A stretch of 64,000 nt of DNA, from the NCBI GenBank assembly GCA_018821985.1, contig JAHJKP010000017.1, positions 1-64,000 on the forward strand, written 5' to 3'. A program made the position numbers and the translations under genes. Below the pieces are notes generated by a model. It was not told the origin of the DNA, made no database searches, and saw nothing but the letters and a program-made list of their open reading frames with translations. The DNA is from Pseudomonadota bacterium (GTDB taxonomy: Bacteria > Desulfobacterota > Desulfobulbia > Desulfobulbales > Desulfocapsaceae). Shown here piece after piece: positions 27,769 to 39,980 of the stretch. How positions within the stretch are numbered: the first letter of the stretch is position 1; every line of letters starts with the position of its first letter.

Positions 27769-28707
27769 CTAATTCTCCGGGTAGAACATCTTGCGTACCT
27801 GCCTGATCCCCTCGAGCAGGTGCATGGTCGGACGTGAGACCAGTTCTTCATTGACGAGACAGATTCTCCCCTCACGTACCGCCTTAATTGCCTTGAACCC
27901 TGGTTCTTCAGTAATCATTTCCTTCGTTACCTGGTTCATCTGGCCCTGCTGGGCAAGATAGATATCAATCTCTGCCGCATGAGAGAGAATGCGTTCTTTC
28001 CCATAAGCGGCAATATTGGTGGAATGTCTGGCCGTAGCATCGGCTGCGACATTAACCCCACCCCCATTTTCAAGGACAAAAACTGCAATGGATGATGGGG
28101 CAAAGGTCTTCATCTTGGCATGAATGGATTCAAAATAAACTCTGGGCCGATTATTCACAGGAACCATGTCCCGAATCTCCTGAAGAGCCGTAAGCTCACT
28201 CCTGAATGTCCGGATCATGGCCGCAGCCTCATTGGCTCGGCCGGTAAGTTCCCCCAGGCTCTGCCAATAACTGAACATCTCTTCAATGGTGGTTGGCTGA
28301 AGAGAGACAAGGACGATACCAGCCTCCTGCAACTGTTTTACCAGTTGAGGATGGGAGCGGCTGATCATCGGTCTGATCAGGATAAGATCCGGTTTTGCGG
28401 CAATGAATTTTTCCGGGGTATCATTAGCACTAAACAGCGGTCTGCCAAGGACAGCCGGATCATCATCGCCAGCAGTTACCCCGATCAGTTCCTGATTAAG
28501 ACCAAGCGCCAGCAGATTCTCGGTATGGGCCGGATAAAGGGAAATAATCCGCTTGAAAGGCACTTCATAACTAATCGAAGTTCCCTCCTGATCTACCAGG
28601 ATGGCGGCAGACGCAGGATGCCATCTGCTTATCACAATAAAAACAGCAAGCAGCAAGCAACAACACTGCTTTTTCCTCAGACCAAAAAAATAAAAGGGAA
28701 TATTCAT
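27769..28707 (-). CDS. btuF: corrinoid/metal-chelate ABC transporter substrate-binding protein (BtuF-like)
   Basis: A 312-residue exported periplasmic binding protein. A basic, Cys-rich signal peptide with cleavage near PASAA (residue 34) precedes a class III (helical-backbone) binding fold: RIISLYPAHTENLLALGL, KPDLILIRP, and a C-terminal EPGFKAIKAVREGRICLVNEEL. It belongs to the BtuF/FhuD/ferric-siderophore group. Substrate is inferred as a corrinoid or precursor, because the operon carries a cobalamin riboswitch. It starts one nucleotide after the btuD stop codon region, so coupling is likely. Confidence 0.85.
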   Translation of the reverse strand: MNIPFYFFGLRKKQCCCLLLAVFIVISRWHPASAAILVDQEGTSISYEVPFKRIISLYPAHTENLLALGLNQELIGVTAGDDDPAVLGRPLFSANDTPEKFIAAKPDLILIRPMISRSHPQLVKQLQEAGIVLVSLQPTTIEEMFSYWQSLGELTGRANEAAAMIRTFRSELTALQEIRDMVPVNNRPRVYFESIHAKMKTFAPSSIAVFVLENGGGVNVAADATARHSTNIAAYGKERILSHAAEIDIYLAQQGQMNQVTKEMITEEPGFKAIKAVREGRICLVNEELVSRPTMHLLEGIRQVRKMFYPEN

Positions 28708-28708
28708 A

Positions 28709-29518
28709 TTAGCTCAATGTATAATGGATACGTGGAGAATGATTAAGGGTTGCAGCCTGCACCTCGGCCTGCACCTGAAAGACCTCGGCAATCAAATCGA
28801 CGGTCAGGGCTTCCCCCACCGGCCCGGTAGTAAAGATGCGACCCTCTTTCAAGACAATCACCTGGTCACAGAAGGCTGCGGCCAGATTCAGATCGTGGAT
28901 GGCGGCAATAACCGTCCGGCCTTGCTCTCTAACCAGTTTACGAATAACATGCATAATTTCAATAGTATGATGGATGTCAAGATTTGAGGTAGCCTCGTCA
29001 AGCACCAAGACCTCGGTGTCCTGGGCCAGAGCCCGGGCCACCACCACTCGCTGTTTCTCGCCGCCGGACAGATCGGTGATCAATCGGTGGCGCAGGGTGT
29101 GGACCTGCATGACTTGCATGGCCTCATCAACCAGATCAAGATCCCGCTGAGACGGATTACTGAACCGAGGAATATATGGGTAACGACCCATGAGCACCAG
29201 ATCAGACACGGTAAAGTCAAAACCCATGGAAAACTGCTGGGGCACCAGAGCAATCTTGGTGGCCAACTCCTTTTTGGCATAGTCGGCAAGTGCCTTTCCC
29301 TGAAAAATTATCTGGCCGCTCTGCAAGGGCCTGGTAGCGGTCAGCAGATCAAGCAGGGTTGTCTTGCCGCTACCATTGGGACCGATAAGTCCGTAAAACT
29401 GCCCAGGAACAAGATCCAGATCAATATCCTGGAGGACGTTATTTGCCCTGTAGGCAAAACAGCCCTTACTGATGGCAAAGAGCGGGTCAGTGTGGATATT
29501 ATTCTTAGCCACGGCCAT
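28709..29518 (-). CDS. btuD: ABC transporter ATP-binding protein (BtuD-like)
   Basis: A 269-residue ABC ATPase of the FecCD-type (iron complex/B12) import family. Walker A GPNGSGKTT, Q-loop VPQQF, signature LSGGEKQR, Walker B VLVLDEATSNLD and the H-loop IHDLNLA are all present. I use the ATG at 29518, which overlaps the btuC stop in a TGATG arrangement. It powers corrinoid import with the neighbouring permease. Confidence 0.93.
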   Translation of the reverse strand: MAVAKNNIHTDPLFAISKGCFAYRANNVLQDIDLDLVPGQFYGLIGPNGSGKTTLLDLLTATRPLQSGQIIFQGKALADYAKKELATKIALVPQQFSMGFDFTVSDLVLMGRYPYIPRFSNPSQRDLDLVDEAMQVMQVHTLRHRLITDLSGGEKQRVVVARALAQDTEVLVLDEATSNLDIHHTIEIMHVIRKLVREQGRTVIAAIHDLNLAAAFCDQVIVLKEGRIFTTGPVGEALTVDLIAEVFQVQAEVQAATLNHSPRIHYTLS

Positions 29519-30546
29519 CACCGCTGTCCCAACTGTTTTTTACGGAAGATATAGCAGAAAAACGGGCCGCCGATCAGCGAGGTAAGCACCCCTATGGGCA
29601 GCTCAGTTGGCAGCCAGGCCCTGGTAATGGTGTCAGCCGTAAGCAGGAGAATGGCCCCGCCGAAGAAACAGGCCGGGATCAGCAGGCGGTTATCAGGACC
29701 TAAGACGAGGCGCAGAAGATGGGGGATAATCAGCCCCACAAAACCGATGATACCGGATACCGAGACACAGATGGCTGTCATCAGTGAGGCGCAGACCAAG
29801 AGGATCTTCTTCACCTTGCGGCTGTCAACGCCGAGTGTATCCGCCGTCCGTCCGCCAAGGGCCATGATATTGAGATCCCTTGCAAAATAAAGCGTCAACA
29901 GCAGACCAGGAAAAACAAAGATTGCGGTCAAAGTTACATCAGACCAGGTCTTGCCCACAAAGCTTCCCATCAGCCAGAAGATAATCACCCCCACCTGCTC
30001 ATCGGCCAGATACTTGATGAAACCAATCCCGGCAGAGAGGATAGCAGCCACAATCACCCCGGACAGGATCAAGGTATTGGAAGAAAGCCTGCCGTCCGGA
30101 GCGGCCAGAGCAAAGACCACGATCAGAGTGGTCATGGCACCAAGAAAGGCAAAGAGAGGCACTGAAAAAAAAAGTGGAACCGTGATTCCCAAGATACCCA
30201 AGACCAAGGCCAGAGAGGCTCCGAAGGCCGCACCCGAAGAGACCCCAAGAGTATAGGGATCTGCCAGAGGATTGAGAAGAATGGCCTGAAACACGGCTCC
30301 GGCCACTGCCAGTCCGCCACCGACAAAGGCCGCGGCCAGGATACGTGGCAGTCGTACCTCCATGATGACAAAGGGAAAAGTGGGATTAATATCAGCTGCA
30401 ATCCCTATTCCACGCACCTTTGCCCATACGACCTGGATCACCTCCAGAGGTGCAATGGCAAGAAATCCCATACCCGTTGCCAGGATAATGGCCAAGACCA
30501 GGAACAGGGCCAGGGACATCAGGATAAAAGGTGACTTAGATGACAT
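29518..30546 (-). CDS. btuC: FecCD-family ABC transporter permease (BtuC-like)
   Basis: A 342-residue inner-membrane permease with about ten predicted transmembrane segments. GAVFQAILLNPLADPYTLGVSSGAAFGASL and GIIGFVGLIIPHLLRLVLGPD are the conserved motifs of BtuC/FhuB-like permeases. It forms the membrane channel with two copies of BtuD. It sits between cbiK (upstream, 18 nt) and btuD (overlapping by one nucleotide motif). Confidence 0.93.
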   Translation of the reverse strand: MSSKSPFILMSLALFLVLAIILATGMGFLAIAPLEVIQVVWAKVRGIGIAADINPTFPFVIMEVRLPRILAAAFVGGGLAVAGAVFQAILLNPLADPYTLGVSSGAAFGASLALVLGILGITVPLFFSVPLFAFLGAMTTLIVVFALAAPDGRLSSNTLILSGVIVAAILSAGIGFIKYLADEQVGVIIFWLMGSFVGKTWSDVTLTAIFVFPGLLLTLYFARDLNIMALGGRTADTLGVDSRKVKKILLVCASLMTAICVSVSGIIGFVGLIIPHLLRLVLGPDNRLLIPACFFGGAILLLTADTITRAWLPTELPIGVLTSLIGGPFFCYIFRKKQLGQR

Positions 30547-30564
30547 GCAATATCCGCTTTTTCT

Positions 30565-31551
30565 TTAGTCCAGTTGAATTCCATGCTCTTTTGCCAGCTC
30601 CGTCAGATGATGGACAAAGACATCGGCAAAGCTGTCCACTTCCCCCATTCCCTGCAAGATCGGGGTTACTTCAAATCCTTCTTTGGTCAGGATGGATTTC
30701 CAGGACTCGGCCTCGGGTCCTGCCATGTCGTTCTGGGCATGGTCGCCAGCCACGGTCAGGAAGGGTTTCAACAGAACCTTCCTGGTCTTGTCCCTCTTCA
30801 ACTGCTCGATGACATAGTCAAGTCCGGGAAATCCTTCCACGGTACCGATATAGGTCTTCACCTGGGGGGTGAGATGGTTCATGGTATCGGCAAACTGGAG
30901 GTAGGAACCGCCTGAGGGGAAAAAGTCATTGCCGTGTCCCATATACACCAGGGCACTGCCGGCCTTTGCGGCCTGATCGATATCCGCAGACAGGGACTTG
31001 GCAACCAATTCGATATCCTGAGGATAGGGATGGATATCGCCCATGGTGCCTAAGGCCGGTCTGCCAATCACCAGTTGCTTGAAGGGCTGGTTCTTCTCTT
31101 TAATGGTGTGAATACCGGACAGCCCCTGCACATAGGAAACCAGATCAAGATACTCTTCTCCCAGAGCAACATGGGTGGGTTGGATCAGGATAGTGGTAAA
31201 GCCATCATCCTGCAGGTTGGCAATGGTGGCCAGAGGCCCTTGTACGCCCAGGATATCTTGGGGGACAGCAGGATGTGTTTTGACATAATCCGGATCGTGC
31301 TGGCGTTTATGCCAGATGGCACGGATCATGTTGGAGGTGAAAGCAATCCGCACCTCGGTGTTCGGATATTGTAGTTTAATTCGGTCTCTGACATTCAGAA
31401 TGCCAGTCAACGCCTCTGGCACGGTGGTGCCGAAGGCGGCAATCACCACTGCCTGAGTTTGTTTCTTATTGTGTTCCCGCCCACAGGCAAGGGAATACAT
31501 GGAAAAAAAGCAGAGCGCCCACAGGATTGAGAGTTTTGTAAATTTATGCAT
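30565..31551 (-). CDS. cbiK: exported sirohydrochlorin cobaltochelatase, CbiK type
   Basis: A 328-residue CbiK chelatase with an N-terminal hydrophobic export signal (residues 5-22, ending SLAC), so it is probably periplasmic or lipid-anchored. VVIAAFGTTVPEAL starts the chelatase domain. VYMGHGND (His206) and AGDHAQNDM (His271) correspond by position and context to the metal-binding histidines of Salmonella CbiK, and QPTHVALGEEY (His127) may provide a further ligand. Desulfovibrio vulgaris has both a cytoplasmic and a periplasmic CbiK. The periplasmic one binds heme and its physiological role is unsettled. AAGGAA precedes the ATG. It is the first gene after the cobalamin riboswitch, so it is expected to be shut off when B12 is plentiful. 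Confidence 0.93.
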   Translation of the reverse strand: MHKFTKLSILWALCFFSMYSLACGREHNKKQTQAVVIAAFGTTVPEALTGILNVRDRIKLQYPNTEVRIAFTSNMIRAIWHKRQHDPDYVKTHPAVPQDILGVQGPLATIANLQDDGFTTILIQPTHVALGEEYLDLVSYVQGLSGIHTIKEKNQPFKQLVIGRPALGTMGDIHPYPQDIELVAKSLSADIDQAAKAGSALVYMGHGNDFFPSGGSYLQFADTMNHLTPQVKTYIGTVEGFPGLDYVIEQLKRDKTRKVLLKPFLTVAGDHAQNDMAGPEAESWKSILTKEGFEVTPILQGMGEVDSFADVFVHHLTELAKEHGIQLD

Positions 31552-31594
31552 GATGTTCCTTCCCCTTGCTGATCAGGTCCGGGGAAAACAGAAA

Positions 31595-31627
31595 ATCCCG
31601 GACCAATTATAATAATTGATCCGGGAT
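31595..31627 (-). terminator. hairpin in the cbiK leader, possible riboswitch expression platform
   Basis: On the minus strand ATCCCGGA-TC-AATTAT and the matching ATAATTG-GTCCGGGAT form a long stem followed by TTTT, between the B12 riboswitch aptamer and cbiK. It looks like the terminator arm of a transcriptional riboswitch. The U-run is short, so control at translation cannot be excluded. Confidence 0.6.
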
Positions 31628-31687
31628 CTCCCTTCATATCCGAAATCACAGGTATGGGCTCTGTCCACGAGGTCATACCAATTTTAT

Positions 31688-31832
31688 TCAGGCAGGTCTT
31701 CTGACTTCCGGCTCTTTCGCACCCCGCGCCTTCCCATCCTCACTTCCAGACAGTGGCTTTTTGCGGAATTTGTCCCCGGTTACAGCGGCGGGCCCGTCTT
31801 CGATTTACACGAAGTTCCCTTTTCAACCTGAA
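31688..31832 (-). promoter_or_regulatory. cobalamin (B12) riboswitch upstream of cbiK
   Basis: On the minus strand the region carries the B12-box-type motif AGTCAGAAGACCTGCCT, preceded by the GCCGGAAG stem and the central core with GGCCCGCCGCTGTAACC-like elements and GAAGTGAGGATG. This is the adenosylcobalamin aptamer pattern. Its position, 135 nt before cbiK, means the whole cbiK-btuC-btuD-btuF-cbiL operon is expected to be repressed by cobalamin. Confidence 0.9.
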
Positions 31833-32306
31833 AAATTTATTCTATCTTCTTAATATAAGCAGACGAAGAAACCTTCCAGGTACCTGAATCTATAAAAACA
31901 CAAATACCTGCAATCATCGGTTTTGTCAAGATTAGGAGCCGTCACGAAATAACTTCTCTCTTTATAACTATTTCGCTACGGCTCCTTATACCGTTCCGGC
32001 CCTTCAGATAACCATATTATTCACAGACAACGGTTTGACTGGAAAGCTGAAAGTTATAAGTTGAAAGATGAAGGTTGTCTGTGGTAGCGTTCCTATAACC
32101 TTATTATGCACTTGACTGTTATTCAAAAAATCATACTATTGATGTCGTGACTGACATCAATAGCCATAGCAGAAAGATCAAGAAAGCAATGGTTGTTTCG
32201 TAACGACTGCTAGGCTTTCAGGATTCCCAGAATACCTGACTCTCTAAAAACAAATCTTCTCGTCATCTTTTTCTCTCTTCTCATCTCATTCTTTCAGGAG
32301 GTTATT
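31833..32306. repeat. repeat-rich non-coding region between the B12 operon and lemA
   Basis: Non-coding, with nested repeats. An inverted repeat has arms 31934-31951 and 31969-31986 (16 of 18 bp match). A 17-bp direct repeat ATAACCxTATTATxCAC is at 32008-32024 and 32095-32111. CACAGACAAC/GTTGTCTGTG (32022-32031 and 32074-32083) is a 10-bp inverted repeat. CTATTGATGTC/GACATCAATAG (32136-32163) is an 11-bp hairpin. TACCTGAxTCT-type copies flank the region at 31881-31905 and 32233-32255. Function unknown. A MITE-like or REP-like element is possible. Confidence 0.6.
31901..31929 (-). promoter_or_regulatory. promoter for the B12 riboswitch operon
   Basis: On the minus strand a perfect TTGACA (31929-31924), 17 nt, and TATTTG as -10 (31906-31901). 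The -10 is weak but the distance to the aptamer start (about 60 nt downstream of the predicted start site) is sensible. Confidence 0.5.
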
Positions 32307-32891
32307 ATGAAACGGATCATACATTTCGGAGTCTTGCTCCTTGTTGCCATGCTTCTATCCAGTTGTGGCTATAACTCCTTGCAGACTCAGGAAGAAACGG
32401 TCTTCAAGGCCTGGGCCGACATTGAATCCACCCTGCAACGACGTGCCGACCTGATCCCCAATCTGGTAGCAACGGTCAAGGGCTACGCCACACATGAACA
32501 AGAAACCTTACAAAAGGTTATAGAGGCCCGGGCCAAGGCGACCTCCATCCAGCTTTCTCCCGCTGACCTGAGCAATCCGGCAGCCATGCAACAACTTCAA
32601 GCCTCTCAGGGCGCTCTTTCTTCGGCCCTTTCCCGCCTGATGGTTGTCGTGGAACAATATCCTGATCTCAAGGCCAATCAGAACTTTCTTGATCTGCAGA
32701 ATCAACTTGAAGGCACGGAAAACCGAATCAACGTGGCCCGGCAGCGTTACAATGAGGCTGTGGAGATGTTTAACGGTTCTATCAGAAAGTTTCCTGCCAG
32801 CCTGACCAATAAATTCCTGCTGCACCTGGTGAAAAAGGAGTACTTCAAGGCCGAAGAAACGGCCAAAGCTGTGCCTAAAGTTACGTTCTAA
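32307..32891 (+). CDS. LemA-family lipoprotein
   Basis: A 194-residue LemA protein. The signal ends with LLSSC, giving a lipobox Cys at residue 20, so membrane-anchored in the periplasm. The all-helical LemA core follows: [51 protein letters not shown] and a C-terminal [11 protein letters not shown]-like end. AGGAGG precedes the ATG. Function of the family is not firmly known, and it commonly occurs with TPM-domain proteins, as here. It starts a plus-strand trio with the two TPM-domain genes. Confidence 0.92.
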
Positions 32892-32897
32892 TTTCCC

Positions 32898-33779
32898 ATG
32901 CGCAATACTCTTCTCACAAAAAGGTTGGTCGGACTATTTCTCGCCCTGAGCTTGATCTTTCTTGGCACGCGGCCCGTCCCGGCCCTTGAGGTCCCGCCGC
33001 TCAAAGGCCGGGTCAATGATTACGCCGGAATTCTTGCCCCGGCCACGGCCCGTCAACTTGAAGCTGTGTTGCAGAATTTTGAGACTGAGGAATCAACCCA
33101 AATTGTTCTGCTCACTGTTCCTTCTTTGGACGGAGCGTCTCTCGAGGATTTTTCCCTGCGAGTGGTGGAAAAGTGGAAACCCGGACAGAACAAGCTGGAT
33201 AACGGCGCCCTGCTTCTGATTGCCAAGAATGATCGTAAATTGCGCATAGAAGTCGGTTATGGCCTTGAAGGGAAGTTAACCGATCTGGTGTCCGGCCGTA
33301 TTATTCGGGACATCATCACCCCCAGGTTCAAGGAGGGGAATTTTGATCAAGGGGTAATCGATGGTATTTCCGCCATGATGGCCGTGGTTAAAGGTGAGTT
33401 CGCGACCACCGACAGTAACCGGCGCCAAAATCGCAGCGGTGACCCCGGGGCCATGCTCATTTTTTTCCTGGTCATTTTCTCGGTTCTTGGCAGGATATTG
33501 GCCCGCACCCCTTGGCTGGCGGCGGGAGTCGGGGCGGTTTTCGCTCCTGTTTTCGGCGCGCTGGCACTGAGTCTCGGTGGCCTAATGCTGTTGGCCTTGG
33601 CATTACTCGGTTTTATTGGTGGCCTCATCGCGGCCCGAATGGCCAATGCAACAGGAGTCAGCTCGCACGGATACTGGGGTGGAAGTGGAGGTTTTAGCAG
33701 CGGTTCCTCAGGTGGATTTGGCGGCTTCAGCGGCGGCGGTGGCAGTTTTGGTGGCGGTGGAGCCTCAGGAGGCTGGTAA
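32898..33779 (+). CDS. TPM-domain protein, YgcG-like, exported, Gly/Ser-rich tail
   Basis: A 293-residue protein. A signal peptide (cleavage near ALEVPP, residue 32) is followed by a TPM phosphatase-like domain (about 36-155: GRVNDYAGILAPATARQLEAVLQ and LLIAKNDRKLRIEVGYGLEGKLTD, PRFKEGNFDQGVIDGISAMM). After it comes a membrane region with two hydrophobic segments (about 185-250) and a Gly/Ser-rich C-terminus (GGFGGFSGGGGSFGGGG). This matches the YgcG/Psb32-like family that travels with LemA. Six nucleotides separate it from lemA. Confidence 0.9.
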   Translation: MRNTLLTKRLVGLFLALSLIFLGTRPVPALEVPPLKGRVNDYAGILAPATARQLEAVLQNFETEESTQIVLLTVPSLDGASLEDFSLRVVEKWKPGQNKLDNGALLLIAKNDRKLRIEVGYGLEGKLTDLVSGRIIRDIITPRFKEGNFDQGVIDGISAMMAVVKGEFATTDSNRRQNRSGDPGAMLIFFLVIFSVLGRILARTPWLAAGVGAVFAPVFGALALSLGGLMLLALALLGFIGGLIAARMANATGVSSHGYWGGSGGFSSGSSGGFGGFSGGGGSFGGGGASGGW

Positions 33780-33782
33780 TAA

Positions 33783-34433
33783 ATGCAGACTTTAGCTCAA
33801 CAGTTTCTTACAGAGGCAGAACAGAACACGATCTCAGCCCTTGTCCAGCAGATGGAACAGCAGACCTCGGGTGAGATCGTTCCCATGGTGGTCTCGGCCA
33901 GTCACTCGTATCCCACAGCCATAATTATGGGGGCAACAGTACTAGCCTTTCCCTTTTCATTGCTCCTCATGCCAGTCATCAGCGGCCTTTTCTGGCTAGG
34001 CTCGCAGAATGTGTGGATTTTTATCGCCCTCTTTATAACACTGTACGGCGTCTTTTATAGTCTGATACAACGCTTTACCTGGTTTAAACGTTTTTTCCTG
34101 TCCCGGAAGCAGGTCGAGGCGGAGGTACAGGAGGCGGCGCTCACCAGTTTTTTTACGGAAAAACTCTACAAAACAAAGGACGCAAATGGAATTCTGATCT
34201 TCATTTCCATTCTTGAACGCAAGGTCTGGGTGTTAGCTGATAGTGGAATCAATGCTTGTATTGATTCAGGGCAGTGGCAGGGGGTTATTGATGTGATCAC
34301 TCAGGGGATCAAGGAAAAACGTCAATGTGAGGCTATCTGTGAAGCCATTATCCAAATTGGAGAGCTGCTCAGGACACATTTCCCCGTTCAGGAGGATGAT
34401 ATCAATGAATTGCACAATCTCATTGTACGTTAA
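33783..34433 (+). CDS. TPM-domain membrane protein
   Basis: A 216-residue protein in the same cluster. Residues 1-50 carry a QFLTEAEQNTISALVQQMEQQTSGEIVPMVVSAS start of TPM type. Two transmembrane segments occupy about 45-100, and the C-terminal half FFTEKLYKTKDANGILIFISILERKVWVLADSGINA continues the TPM fold (the family repeats the xGILIxIS element). It begins four nucleotides after the preceding TPM gene, so it is coupled. Molecular function is unknown. Confidence 0.88.
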   Translation: MQTLAQQFLTEAEQNTISALVQQMEQQTSGEIVPMVVSASHSYPTAIIMGATVLAFPFSLLLMPVISGLFWLGSQNVWIFIALFITLYGVFYSLIQRFTWFKRFFLSRKQVEAEVQEAALTSFFTEKLYKTKDANGILIFISILERKVWVLADSGINACIDSGQWQGVIDVITQGIKEKRQCEAICEAIIQIGELLRTHFPVQEDDINELHNLIVR

Positions 34434-34574: not shown

Positions 34575-35738
34575 TCACCGTCTCTTAAGGGGCTGCTGCT
34601 CAGGATTTTGCCGCGATCGAAAGTGGGGCCTATCGATCCAGTACGGAGCAGCAAGGCCGTTTCGATAGGCATCAAGTGCCTCGGGAGATGAATTGATGTG
34701 AAGATTGCTGAAGCTCCCGTCCTTGTTTTCCCAGCGTTCATGCCAATAGACCGCTCCCTTGACCCGCGGGTATCTCGTCTCTAAATCAGCAAAGGCCTTG
34801 GTGAAAAATTCAGCCTTGCTGGCTGGAGGGAATTCACCAACTCCCCATTCCGCCAGAATGACAGGTTTCAGGGGGTCCAACCGACAGATTTCCTGATAGG
34901 AGCTCTCCATCACATCATAAAAGGAGGCCCAGTCCTCCGAACGCAACATCTTGCCATACACACTCAAGCCGAGCCAGTCCACATAGTCCGCCCCAGGATA
35001 GTAATTAGCTATTTTATTCCAGGATTTTTGAGGCATACCATAATGGTTGACGTGAAAACCCCAGAGAATATTTACCGCCTTCCGCGACCTGACCCGATCA
35101 ACCACATACCGGTATGCCTTTTTCACCAACTCTGGTCCGGCATAAAGAGGATGTCCGTCTTTATGGCCAGTAACCCTGCCCCCGCCAAAATAGGAACCTG
35201 ACCAGGGAAACCAGGTTCCGTTCATCTCAAGCCCCCAGGACACCATAATGGGTTTGCCATAGTTCCGCGCCGCATCTGCCCATTGATCGATATAGATGTC
35301 CCACTTGCCCGCAAGGATATCGGGCAGCTTAAAACGATCCGGACGCTGATATTCCACGTAGGGTCTGTCCCATGGTGACCAGTAGATCAAGGGGATCGCC
35401 CCATATCCCGAGACAATCTTCACTGCTTTGACGGGAAACACCTGTTCTCCCCAGAAATTACCAAAGCCTATAATGGCAAGGTGTTTGCCGCTCATCTGCT
35501 CAAAGGCTGTTATTGCGTCAAAGGTGACATTACCCTCACCCTCGCCAAAATCCACATACGCCCCGGTGTAAGCCCCTTTGTCCGGCATGCTCAATTCTTT
35601 CGGACCGTCGTCATTAACCCTTGCAGGTTCCTCATGTTGACAGCCGGCGCACAGAACCCCACAGGAGAACAAAACAGCAACAAGCCAAACAACTATTTTT
35701 ATGCTGATGAATGAACCCCTCGTAATCATTACCTTCAT
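34575..35738 (-). CDS. GH26-like glycoside hydrolase, lipoprotein
   Basis: A 387-residue protein, starting at ATG 35738 where TAGGA lies upstream. The N-terminus is basic then hydrophobic and ends LCAGC, a lipobox-like motif. The catalytic domain resembles GH26 beta-mannanases: WGLEMNGTWFPWSG contains the acid/base Glu of the EMNG box, and ILAEWGVGE the likely nucleophile. HLAIIGFGNFWG near residue 90 and SVYGKML and YWHERWENKDGS fill the family pattern. Substrate not known; GH26 members also act on beta-1,3/1,4 glucans and related polymers. It follows the tri-domain polysaccharide gene by 16 nt, so the two are cotranscribed and probably act on the same polymer: release, trimming or turnover is inferred. 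Confidence 0.82.
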   Translation of the reverse strand: MKVMITRGSFISIKIVVWLVAVLFSCGVLCAGCQHEEPARVNDDGPKELSMPDKGAYTGAYVDFGEGEGNVTFDAITAFEQMSGKHLAIIGFGNFWGEQVFPVKAVKIVSGYGAIPLIYWSPWDRPYVEYQRPDRFKLPDILAGKWDIYIDQWADAARNYGKPIMVSWGLEMNGTWFPWSGSYFGGGRVTGHKDGHPLYAGPELVKKAYRYVVDRVRSRKAVNILWGFHVNHYGMPQKSWNKIANYYPGADYVDWLGLSVYGKMLRSEDWASFYDVMESSYQEICRLDPLKPVILAEWGVGEFPPASKAEFFTKAFADLETRYPRVKGAVYWHERWENKDGSFSNLHINSSPEALDAYRNGLAAPYWIDRPHFRSRQNPEQQPLKRR

Positions 35739-35754
35739 GATTCCTACCTTTCCC

Positions 35755-38700
35755 TCAAGCATTATAAGTGACCGAGGCGGTACGATCGAGTTTGCCCCAG
35801 CCGACCAAGACCCCTTTGCTCGCTTTGACTATGGCCTTGATGACCGCATAACTTAACACCGGTCTGTAGATAAACCGCATGGGCAGAACCAGCCAGACCT
35901 GGGATAAAGGCTCCCTTTCTATGAGGCAGGCAACCGCGGCCAGCAGCAGATCGGCACAAAGAAAGATTAAAAAATAAAAATAGAGAATACCGTTAGCCGG
36001 ACTCATAAACAGCGATAAAAGCAAAAAAGCATCAATAATTGGCCCAAGCGCCACCAGCAGGATATTGAAAAACCAGGAACTTGGCAGACTAAACCAACCC
36101 AGCGCCCTGTACTTGCTATCAAAAAGCATATCCCGATGTTTCCACAGACATTGCAAGGTTCCAAAGGCCCAACGGAATCGTTGTTTAGCAAAAGCCCTTA
36201 TGGTTTCAGGGGCCTCAGTCCAGGCAACGGCCCTGGAGGCATAGCAAATCTTAAAGCCACACCTGTGCAGACTCAAGGTCAGGTCAGTATCTTCTGCCAG
36301 GGTATCGGTACTGATCCCACCAGCCGCAAAGACCGCCCCTTTTTTTAAGGCGCTGACTGCCCCGGGCACGACCGTAATACAGTTCAGCAGGTGATAGGCC
36401 CTCCGATCAAGATTGAACCCGCAGGTATATTCAAGGGACTGGAATCTGGCAACAAAGGTCTTGGGATTGCCAACCCTGGCCCGGCCTGAAACTGCACCAA
36501 CGGCAGGATCAGCAAATGGGCGGACAAGCTCACCAATGGTATCCGGCGTGAATTGAGTGTCAGCATCCAGACTGATCACAATTTCGTGTTGGACAAGGTC
36601 AAACCCGGTCTTTAAGGCCATGGCCTTCCCACAATTAATCTGCCTAAAAAGATGGATGCGTCCATCGCTTTGAGCCATCTCAGCCACAATCTCCGCTGTT
36701 CTGTCCTTTGAACCGTCATCGACCACAATCACCTCAATCTCACCTGGGTAGGTGCTGTTCAATACCGCCAGCAGCGTTTGCCTGATAACCTTTTCTTCAT
36801 TATAGGCAGCGACCAGGACACTCACTGATGGATAGAGTCCTGGCAGCGGAGGCCAGGGCGGCAACCCGGCATCACCAAGCCTGCGGCTACGGATTGCCAA
36901 CCAGGCCACGCTTAAGGTCCTGACAACAACCATGGCGGTCGCCACGATCATAAACGCCCAGAAGAATTGCGCCATTTTGTGGATGGCTTTGAACCCGCTT
37001 TCGCTCACCAGCCTGGTCATAGACCGCTGATTCTGAGAGACAGAAGGCATGACCTGTTCCTGCGGGATCCCGAGCATTGAGGACAAGGAAAGAATAGTGT
37101 CTCCCCTGGCCCGTAAATAATCGATAATCCTCGGCAGCGCCTCAATCGTCTGACTCCGGTCACCGCCCGCATCATGGAGCAGAACGATATTTCCGCCCTG
37201 CTGGCGATCCCGTTTGACGTTCTCGACCATTGCCGTGACCCCTGGCTGTGACCAGTCTTCCGGATCAATGTCTTCGGTCACGGTGATATATCCCAGTTTC
37301 TGAGCAAGCTTGACAGGCACAAGCTCTTCCGGGTCATAGGGGTTGGTGTCAGCATTATATGGGGGTCTGAAAAGGATGGTTGATTGACCGATTATGGCCT
37401 CTATCAGACGCTGGGTCGCATTGAATTCCAAATAGGCCCGCTCCTCTGAGACCAGAGCAATATTGGGATGGGTATAGGTGTGGATTCCGACCGTGTGTCC
37501 CTCACGGACAATACGACGGACAATATCGGGATATTTCTCCATATTCGCACCAACCATGAAAAAAGTGGCATTCACCCCTTTAGCCTTGAGAATATCGAGA
37601 ATTTGCGGAGTCCATGTGGAATCGGGTCCGTCATCAAAGGTGATGGCAACGGCATCATTTGGCCCCATTCCCTGATGGAGAATGGTGAGGTAACTGGGGA
37701 ATTTTTCATAGTGTTCAATCACCGGCTCCTCACCATCAGCATTTTTATCGGTTTCAAGCCGCCGCGACCCGTCGGCGCGCTCATCCTCCATGCTAATAAA
37801 GTTTCCCCTGCCGATATGGGCTATTGCCGCTCCGGGCCTGATGGTCTCCAGCGAAACAAGATTAGCACCGACAAGGGGCTTGGCGATATCCAGTTTCAGG
37901 ACCTGCCAGATGCCGGGATCCTCCGTGCCAAGCCGCGATATGGCGATGCCAGCGACATGACGCGATCTTCCAACCTTGAGCTGATTTAAAAAGGTAACAG
38001 CATCCAGAAACCAGAGGGTATGAGCAGCACCCGAGTCCTCATAGTCAAAATGCGGATTATAAGTGGGGGCGTCAAAATCACAGGAGCTGAGGGAGGAGCG
38101 GCCTGCCCGGCTCATCACATCCTGAAAACGAACGGTCTCCGCCTCCTTTTCCCCCTCCGTCCAATCATAGCCATAGGAGCCGAGGGCCAAGACCCACTGC
38201 GATGGCTCGCCGTAGTCGGTCAGGGTATCAAGCCAGCCATTGAACCATTCCCTTGAGGCAATCGGTCCTGGCGGGTCAGATTCGGAATTTTCATCATGAA
38301 GCATGGCGACAAAACGGTCGACATGTTCGGCCAGGGTATCCAGGTCAAGGACATTCAGCCCACTTCCCATGGGCACACAGAGCCATAATTCCATGCTATC
38401 ACCCTGGAGGGCCGAAGCAATTCTGGTAAGAAACACCGTCATGGCAGCCCGATAGGCAGGATCAACCTGTTCCCAGTCGATAACGACCCCGCCCGCACCC
38501 ATGGCCTTCAGGCGTTCCTTGAGGTCGACGATAAACCGATCCCGTCTGACGGCAGGCCCGTTGATAAGCCCTTCAACCGCCTCCGGCAGCCAGACCCCTT
38601 CTCTACCGATGTTGCGGAGCAGGGGGAGAAGTACAATCCCCCGACCCTTTATCAGGTCAAGAACATTCTGCTCCTGGACGACCTTGAGTTCGCCGCGACC

Positions 38701-39219
38701 ATCCTCAACAGTGAACCAGTCCGGGCAGAGGTGGGTTAGGGCATCGACATGGGCCTTAAGCGAATCAAAGCTGGACGGATCCCAACTTTCATAAAACCCA
38801 AGTCTGACCTCACGAATAGAAGTGGTGTGCAGACTCAGCTCTTTTTTAAAGGGGGGCACAACGACCCTTTGGTCGGCGACGAAGGGGATTCTCGTCACGG
38901 CTTTACTATTGCCCTTGGCAAAATTCAGCCACAAGGGCCGCGGCGCCAGCAGCCTGGTCTGGTGTTCCTTGATTTGGAGGGTCTTAAGTCGAGACTTGAG
39001 TTGCTGCACCGTGGGCGGAAGGATAAAATGCGACGGCACAAACAGAGTCTGCACGAAGAGTATCACCCCAACGAATAAAAGAAGCCCCATGACAAATATG
39101 GAAAGACGGAGCCTGGGCCAGCGTTTCCCGCCGGCATCCAGAAAGACAAAGGAATCGGTATTAGGGGTGGGGGGCGGTGAAGGGCGCGTCGACTGGCAAG
39201 TATTACCTGTCATATTCAT
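35755..39219 (-). CDS. tri-domain polysaccharide enzyme: GH18-like, CE4 deacetylase and GT2 synthase
   Basis: One polypeptide of 1154 residues with three enzyme folds. A cytoplasmic start (1-37) leads to a membrane segment (about 38-60). The periplasmic GH18-like domain (about 135-460) has VVIDWEQ with Glu250. The polysaccharide deacetylase (NodB/CE4) domain (about 515-715) keeps TFDDGPD (527-533), HTYTH (580-584), RPPYN (618-622) and LLHDAGGD (680-687). A second membrane segment (about 750-775) leads to a cytoplasmic family-2 glycosyltransferase: DDG 834-836, DADT 885-888, EDTDL 976-980 and QRFRW 1013-1017, then C-terminal membrane segments. The order fits a processive synthase (poly-GlcNAc-like) that also deacetylates and possibly cuts its polymer outside. 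It is upstream of the GH26-like gene. A PilZ-domain gene lies 260 nt upstream on the same strand. Confidence 0.9.
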   Translation of the reverse strand: MNMTGNTCQSTRPSPPPTPNTDSFVFLDAGGKRWPRLRLSIFVMGLLLFVGVILFVQTLFVPSHFILPPTVQQLKSRLKTLQIKEHQTRLLAPRPLWLNFAKGNSKAVTRIPFVADQRVVVPPFKKELSLHTTSIREVRLGFYESWDPSSFDSLKAHVDALTHLCPDWFTVEDGRGELKVVQEQNVLDLIKGRGIVLLPLLRNIGREGVWLPEAVEGLINGPAVRRDRFIVDLKERLKAMGAGGVVIDWEQVDPAYRAAMTVFLTRIASALQGDSMELWLCVPMGSGLNVLDLDTLAEHVDRFVAMLHDENSESDPPGPIASREWFNGWLDTLTDYGEPSQWVLALGSYGYDWTEGEKEAETVRFQDVMSRAGRSSLSSCDFDAPTYNPHFDYEDSGAAHTLWFLDAVTFLNQLKVGRSRHVAGIAISRLGTEDPGIWQVLKLDIAKPLVGANLVSLETIRPGAAIAHIGRGNFISMEDERADGSRRLETDKNADGEEPVIEHYEKFPSYLTILHQGMGPNDAVAITFDDGPDSTWTPQILDILKAKGVNATFFMVGANMEKYPDIVRRIVREGHTVGIHTYTHPNIALVSEERAYLEFNATQRLIEAIIGQSTILFRPPYNADTNPYDPEELVPVKLAQKLGYITVTEDIDPEDWSQPGVTAMVENVKRDRQQGGNIVLLHDAGGDRSQTIEALPRIIDYLRARGDTILSLSSMLGIPQEQVMPSVSQNQRSMTRLVSESGFKAIHKMAQFFWAFMIVATAMVVVRTLSVAWLAIRSRRLGDAGLPPWPPLPGLYPSVSVLVAAYNEEKVIRQTLLAVLNSTYPGEIEVIVVDDGSKDRTAEIVAEMAQSDGRIHLFRQINCGKAMALKTGFDLVQHEIVISLDADTQFTPDTIGELVRPFADPAVGAVSGRARVGNPKTFVARFQSLEYTCGFNLDRRAYHLLNCITVVPGAVSALKKGAVFAAGGISTDTLAEDTDLTLSLHRCGFKICYASRAVAWTEAPETIRAFAKQRFRWAFGTLQCLWKHRDMLFDSKYRALGWFSLPSSWFFNILLVALGPIIDAFLLLSLFMSPANGILYFYFLIFLCADLLLAAVACLIEREPLSQVWLVLPMRFIYRPVLSYAVIKAIVKASKGVLVGWGKLDRTASVTYNA

Positions 39220-39479
39220 TCATCTCACTCGCAAAACGTCCGGACCAGAGCCTACTCAAGAATCCTTCGTGCCCACTTCATTTTTCAGCACGGAGATGTT
39301 CACATATGAATGAAAATATTCTATTAATAACATCATACGCTTATCGCCGGCAATAAGCTATCTTCCCGTAAGGTATGGATACACTGCAGAAGGACAGCTA
39401 AAACACCCAGGACTGGATGGAGATATTTTCTAATCTTTCCCATAGAGGAAAATTTATTAAACTTCAAATCCCGGAATAA

Positions 39480-39830
39480 TCACCTTCGGCCTTCTTCCAT
39501 TGCCTGCCGGCAATAATGGGTATAGACATTAAAGAGGACAAACCATTCCATTCTGGAGATAAAGTGAATGGCAAGCCCATGTTCATCTTCTCGGACAACC
39601 TCACCCCGGATATCATCAAGAAGCAGACGGCTATGATGACCTGTGACGATTATTTCTATCGTACAGGATGCTCCCACCGGAATACTCTGATCAATCTGTA
39701 CAAACATGCCGCTGATACTGATATTCACAAGTTCAGCCGACATAGCGTAATCAGCACCCTCTAACTTTAACGTCACATCGGTGAAAAAGGGGGTGCGGGT
39801 ACACATTCTTCTTTCATTTTTTTTCTCCAT
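39480..39830 (-). CDS. PilZ-domain protein (putative c-di-GMP receptor)
   Basis: A 116-residue PilZ protein. The c-di-GMP motif RxxxR appears as RRMCTR near the N-terminus and the (D/N)xSxxG motif as NISISGMF. The barrel continues with SCTIEIIVTG, RGEVVREDEHGLAIHF. The ATG at 39830 (GAGGTG upstream) is preferred over a longer in-frame start at 39890, which would add hydrophobic, Cys-rich residues of no family meaning. Its place upstream of the tri-domain glycosyltransferase gene suggests it links c-di-GMP to polysaccharide synthesis, as PilZ modules do in cellulose synthase. This is inference from neighbourhood. Confidence 0.85.
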   Translation of the reverse strand: MEKKNERRMCTRTPFFTDVTLKLEGADYAMSAELVNISISGMFVQIDQSIPVGASCTIEIIVTGHHSRLLLDDIRGEVVREDEHGLAIHFISRMEWFVLFNVYTHYCRQAMEEGRR

Positions 39831-39980
39831 ATCTATTTCACACCTCATTAGCAACAACAATTCAAGGGGACAGCACAAGAAGCCATTCAAATGCCCTCAA
39901 GAGGCATCTGTCCCTCATTTTTTCATAATTATAGATAGTATAGCATTCTAATCAATCCTTTTGTCAATCCTTCTTTTCTG

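Follow-up and report, generated by a model that had tools for sequence, protein, structure and literature searches.

Why should an exopolysaccharide synthase bear a hydrolase of its own? The question is raised by a two-gene locus in a 64,000-nucleotide stretch of DNA from a bacterium of the Desulfocapsaceae (positions 1 to 64,000 of contig JAHJKP010000017.1, assembly GCA_018821985.1), referred to here as the window. One gene encodes a membrane protein of 1154 residues in which a GH18-like fold, a CE4 deacetylase and a GT2 synthase are fused, and the other, directly downstream, a predicted GH26 lipoprotein. The reading leaned towards here, with moderate confidence, is that of a variant of synthase-dependent exopolysaccharide production in which the GH26 lipoprotein took over the hydrolysis of a deacetylated amino-sugar polymer while the GH18 domain was kept in a non-catalytic role. 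The new part is evolutionary, namely the pairing with GH26 and the repeated loss of GH18 catalytic residues in a two-gene module, of which no earlier description was found.

Domain composition of the fusion and its GH26 partner

The presence of the three folds in a single protein, originally predicted from the sequence, was confirmed by Pfam and by a structure model. The fusion matches Polysacc_deac_1 (E 3.6e-35, 121 bits, residues 520-623), Glycos_transf_2 (E 3.3e-32, residues 800-929) and, narrowly above the cut-off of 29.6 bits, Glyco_hydro_18 (PF00704; E 4e-7, 30.5 bits, residues 225-394). In the AlphaFold2 model (mean predicted local distance difference test score 86) a helix at residues 33-60 is followed by the GH18 barrel, the CE4 domain, a helix at 734-781, the GT2 domain and three C-terminal helices, an order suggesting that GT2 would face the cytoplasm, with GH18 and CE4 on the outer side of the inner membrane. 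Foldseek matches the GH18 part to a Chromobacterium chitinase (5jh8, TM 0.89 by target) and SleL, the CE4 part to the peptidoglycan deacetylase Bc1960 and the GT2 part to hyaluronan and cellulose synthases. The CE4 domain has the NodB fold with the Asp-Asp pair, HxxxH and catalytic His of its family, invariant across 93 sequences, and the GT2 domain combines DDG, DxD, ED and QxxRW with membrane helices, as processive synthases do. In alignments, Glu250 falls on the Glu of the DxE motif in YdhD and in the Chromobacterium chitinase, but His308 occupies the position of the beta6 Tyr of working GH18 enzymes, giving the set D-E-H-D instead of the canonical DxE plus beta6 Tyr-Asp; the fold is that of GH18 and the active site is incomplete. 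The recognisable catalytic residues that had been claimed are present at Glu250, Asp529/Asp530, His580/His584 and the GT2 motifs.

The downstream open reading frame matches Glyco_hydro_26 (PF02156; E 6.5e-12, 45.9 bits against a cut-off of 20.2) and is the sole GH26 of its genome. Both catalytic Glu are kept across homologues (E179 in 52/52, E305 in 51/51), and its structure model is nearest to CtLic26A, at TM 0.93 by target. A Cys lies within a lipobox-like C-A-G-C; a simple pattern scan finds a lipobox-like Cys in 36 of 56 GH26 frames, and others have a near match.

Coupling of the fusion to GH26

A survey of neighbours bore out the proposed coupling between a protein that synthesises and deacetylates and a GH26 lipoprotein, and showed it to be far stronger than first thought. 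Fusions with 53% identity or more occur in 15 genomes among the relatives, that of the window counted, and each of the 15 has GH26 directly downstream. A survey of 395 genomes from across the phylum gave the fusion in 16, and a GH26 with 51% identity or more in those 16 and no others; G306 alone has the two on separate contigs. More distant GH26 loci (up to 41% identity) were tested as well, and none adjoins a fusion. A second GH26 paralogue, 48% identical, was seen in one genome on a contig other than that of the fusion (G347:C161:31929-32921).

The tree was built by a quick method, with a midpoint root, on CE4 and GT2 columns with GH18 left out. It places the fusions paired with GH26, including that of the window, in one clade (clade II, 62 rows, SH-aLRT 100) and the unpaired ones in another (clade I, 29 rows). 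Eleven clade II genomes lack a GH26 in the stretch around the fusion, and 10 of these, Udaeobacter and an Akkermansia-labelled metagenome-assembled genome among them, have one elsewhere (52-67% identity); no counterpart above 30% identity occurs in any of the 28 clade I genomes. Identities of GH26 and of CE4 plus GT2 are correlated (r = 0.91), and GH26 is the only conserved neighbour of clade II fusions. LemA/TPM, Usp and M16 peptidase genes were considered as module partners and rejected, none being conserved beside the fusions of relatives. The pair spans Thermodesulfobacteriota, Verrucomicrobiota (Spartobacteria and relatives) and some Gammaproteobacteria (Competibacteraceae, Thiosymbion).

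Some loci depart from the common layout. In the Verrucomicrobiota loci L090, L110, L114, L115 and L147, an F5/8-type-C protein of about 730-780 amino acids, possibly a further TIM-barrel glycosidase, is encoded on the opposite strand between fusion and GH26. In G402 (L155, L189, L190) the fusion appears as two open frames with a break between CE4 and GT2 at about residue 780/794, either a true fission or an assembly frameshift. The Akkermansia-labelled genome (L144), with its GH26 elsewhere, has a clade II fusion in which Gln replaces Glu.

The triple fusion by itself is widespread in bacteria and not new, so that the earlier view of it as an unusual combination is not supported. It occurs without a link to GH26 in Acidobacteriota, Bacillota, Cyanobacteriota, Alpha- and Gammaproteobacteria, and also on replicons of Sphingomonas, Deinococcus and Prevotella, where it is annotated merely as 'glycosyltransferase'; these last loci hold similar fusions and were compared by their neighbours only. 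One clade I fusion without GH26 (L070, in G028) belongs to the window's own bacterial family, in which both types are thus represented. No substitute hydrolase was found beside clade I fusions among the genes tested. Glycosyltransferase domains fused to PgaB-like deacetylases in systems lacking pgaA and pgaD (PMC7112194), glycoside hydrolase proteins with additional deacetylase or GT2 domains (PMC4928363) and a GH26 inside an unrelated Wzx/Wzy cluster (PMC13390465) have been described, and a literature search, with subscription papers outside its reach, returned nothing on the present fusion paired with GH26.

Changes in the GH18 active site

All 29 clade I sequences have Asp248 and Glu250, and 28 of them have Tyr308, the remaining one having Phe. 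Clade II (n = 62) differs at each position: the Glu250 site holds Glu in 29, Gln in 22, Gly in eight and Asn in three, so that Glu is lost in 33; the Tyr308 site holds His in 32, Phe in 19, Tyr in nine, Asn in one and Thr in one, being replaced in 53, the window included; and Asp248 is kept in 51, with Glu or Asn in the other 11. A single member (L104) has the full D-E-Y-D set. The tree requires the Glu state to have changed no fewer than 10 times, in every case within clade II. Because the root of the tree is a midpoint root, we infer the ancestral state only from clade I, which is intact and widespread. The canonical chitinase-type cut that had been assigned to GH18 is not borne out, since the absence of Glu250 from an alignment, named beforehand by the original prediction as the finding that would count against it, is what more than half of clade II displays, and the window itself lacks the catalytic Tyr.

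The catalytic motifs of the other two domains remained constant: of the positions compared, nine in CE4 and nine in GT2, none varies in either clade. A global decay of the clade II GH18 domain was rejected, as the ratio of GH18 to GT2 identity is about equal in both clades (0.78 for clade II and 0.73 for clade I). At 25 GH18 positions clade II has settled on a residue seldom met in clade I, several of these residues being aromatic or acidic (W279, W329, W342, D253 and E216 are among the 25), and D253, E216 and D315 are new, near-invariant acids. Since its fold is constrained and new signature residues were gained, the clade II domain appears, as judged from its sequences, to be repurposed for a new, non-canonical job and not discarded.

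Proposed mechanism and alternative explanations

Together the two genes would form a small mobile module that makes and secretes an amino-sugar polymer stripped of part of its N-acetyl groups. The cytoplasmic GT2 core would polymerise a UDP-N-acetylhexosamine, most likely that of N-acetylglucosamine (GlcNAc), and move the chain over the inner membrane, where CE4 on the outer face would strip N-acetyl groups from it as it emerges. The clade II GH18-fold domain, no longer a canonical retaining chitinase, may serve as a chain-binding or guiding module, and the envelope-anchored GH26 lipoprotein would trim and release the polymer. GH18 enzymes require the N-acetyl group of their substrate and GH26 enzymes, which use the clan-A mechanism, do not; GH26 could therefore act on a deacetylated polymer beyond the reach of GH18 chemistry. 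The built-in deacetylase would yield a polymer that GH18 cannot cut, and recruitment of GH26 would solve that problem. A bolder version, in which a horizontally spread and previously undescribed system turned its GH18 into a non-catalytic polymer handler once an outside GH26 took over the cutting, with a specificity new to the GH26 family for deacetylated amino-sugar polymers, is put forward only tentatively and is rather less probable.

Several observations weigh against the favoured reading. No outer-membrane pore was found linked to the module, nor was published biochemistry on any family member. Both D248 and E250 are still present in the window, whose GH18 may thus retain some activity or have an altered one. 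In addition, the GH153 domain of PgaB, a CE4-linked TIM barrel, cuts deacetylated poly-N-acetylglucosamine (PNAG) by means of a single Asp, having no counterpart of the Glu (PMC5933820), and loss of Glu is thus no proof of lost hydrolysis. Clade II GH18 might still be a hydrolase by a changed mechanism of this kind, GH26 acting on a second linkage or at the cell surface only. The retention of D248 in most of clade II, the constrained fold and the new acids would fit such an enzyme, but D248 itself gives way in 11 members, Glu250 became Gln, Gly or Asn in different lineages, Tyr308 was lost too, and GH26 accompanies exactly clade II, all of which makes this explanation unlikely.

The other points concern the identity of the polymer. 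The nearest solved relative of GH26 is a lichenase and not an amino-sugar enzyme, and the GT2 core shares only 34% identity with PgaC, 30% with NodC and 23% with BcsA, so the sugar is a presumed one. The remark in the original prediction that a GH26 would be odd for a pure GlcNAc polymer is reasonable. The clade II polymer might be glucan-like or mixed (for example GlcNAc and glucose) instead of a GlcNAc homopolymer, and be trimmed by a lichenase-like GH26. At 19 GT2 positions clade II is uniform and most of clade I has another residue, which would leave room for a change of donor or linkage. In GH18, residues that bind the N-acetyl group are gone, among them the Tyr, which helps to hold this group in GH18 chemistry. 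Nevertheless, the CE4 catalytic residues are all invariant, which implies an N-acetylated substrate, and GT2 scores best with the PgaC/IcaA model (190 bits, against 96 for NodC and 83 for cellulose synthase); a glucan-like or mixed polymer is therefore unlikely. Naming the polymer from GT2 kinship was tried and given up, as a tree with PgaC, IcaA, NodC and BcsA had long branches and gave no answer.

As for the original view of a PNAG system of the pga/ica type under cyclic di-GMP control, three active enzymes being united in a single chain, it is very improbable: a PilZ gene (Pfam PilZ, E 2.8e-8) does stand 260 bases upstream on the same strand and PgaC is the nearest of the characterised synthases compared, but GT2 reaches only 190.3 of the 422.3 bits required by the PgaC/IcaA equivalog model, the genome (99.85% complete) lacks PgaB and any PgaA above cut-off, GH18 residues are lost in the clade, and a PilZ search of 24 carrier genomes gave none near the fusion among the matches listed, relatives' neighbourhoods being likewise without one. 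Hence the PilZ neighbour is real and its proposed regulatory link is unsupported, because the neighbour is not conserved; by its sequences, the system of the window is not a pga system.

The two clades offer a natural experiment on why exopolysaccharide synthases bear a hydrolase, with an intact GH18 in clade I against an altered GH18 and an external GH26 in clade II. An unexplored GH26 specificity is suggested, possibly a tool against deacetylated biofilm polymers, and the results point to a matrix polymer in bacteria that have received little attention, among them soil Verrucomicrobiota (Udaeobacter) and the Desulfobulbaceae.

Organization of the locus

Both open reading frames of the module were confirmed at their predicted coordinates (Table 1). 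The GH26 start codon overlaps the stop codon of the fusion if the ATG at 35762 is used, a second ATG lying at 35738. Promoter and terminator signals at the locus were not above chance. On the other side of GH26, a LemA gene and two TPM-domain genes (32307-34433, plus strand; Pfam) converge with it. Further away (27769-31897, minus strand), a Cobalamin riboswitch (31674-31897) precedes genes that read as CbiK-like and BtuC-, BtuD- and BtuF-like, an ordinary B12/cobalt uptake cluster.

Table 1. Features of the module and its upstream neighbour in the window
Feature	Coordinates	Strand	Basis
Tri-domain membrane protein GH18-like/CE4/GT2, 1154 aa	35755..39219	-	Open reading frame, Pfam, AlphaFold2, Foldseek
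N-terminal helix, residues 33-60, likely membrane anchor	39040..39123	-	AlphaFold2
GH18-fold domain, about residues 140-470; D248 and E250 kept, beta6 Tyr replaced by H308	37810..38802	-	Pfam, alignment to YdhD and 5jh8, Foldseek
CE4 de-N-acetylase domain, residues 520-717; D529, D530, H580, H584, R618, D652, H682	37069..37662	-	Profiles, alignment, Foldseek
Long helix, residues 734-781, likely membrane crossing that would join outside CE4 to inside GT2	36877..37020	-	AlphaFold2
GT2 synthase core, residues 796-1035; DDG/DADT/EDTD/QRFRW	36115..36834	-	Profiles, alignment, Foldseek
C-terminal helices 1039-1072, 1077-1101 and 1105-1135, probably in the membrane	35815..36105	-	AlphaFold2
GH26 lipoprotein, 395 aa; catalytic pair E179/E305; directly downstream of the fusion	34575..35762	-	Pfam, structure model, alignment
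PilZ-domain protein, likely start 39830; adjoins the fusion upstream, outside the conserved module	39480..39890	-	Pfam, neighbourhood comparison

Comparison with known systems

Like pgaABCD and icaADBC, the module joins a GT2 synthase to a CE4 deacetylase, and PgaB also contributes a polymer-cutting TIM barrel. It differs from them in the single GH18-CE4-GT2 chain, in a GH18 fold instead of GH153 and in the separate GH26 lipoprotein. The BcsA/BcsZ cellulose system shares the principle of an inner-membrane GT2 with a dedicated hydrolase; however, the module adds CE4, its GT2 core is distant from BcsA, and BcsZ belongs to another hydrolase family. CtLic26A, the GH26 lichenase of Clostridium thermocellum, resembles the window's GH26 in fold, in both catalytic Glu and at about 30% identity, but is a secreted enzyme acting on a plant polymer, whereas the latter is a predicted envelope lipoprotein tied to a synthase. 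The chi-lectins YKL-40, YKL-39 and SI-CLP, whose kind of structure is among the Foldseek matches, have the GH18 fold with the catalytic Glu replaced; they are secreted animal proteins, unlike the clade II domain, for which binding is putative. The closest comparison is with the clade I fusions of Geobacillus, Calothrix, Rhodanobacter and others, which have the same domain order as the fusion of the window and about 36-42% identity to it over the full length, but keep intact GH18 catalytic residues in genomes without a GH26 counterpart.

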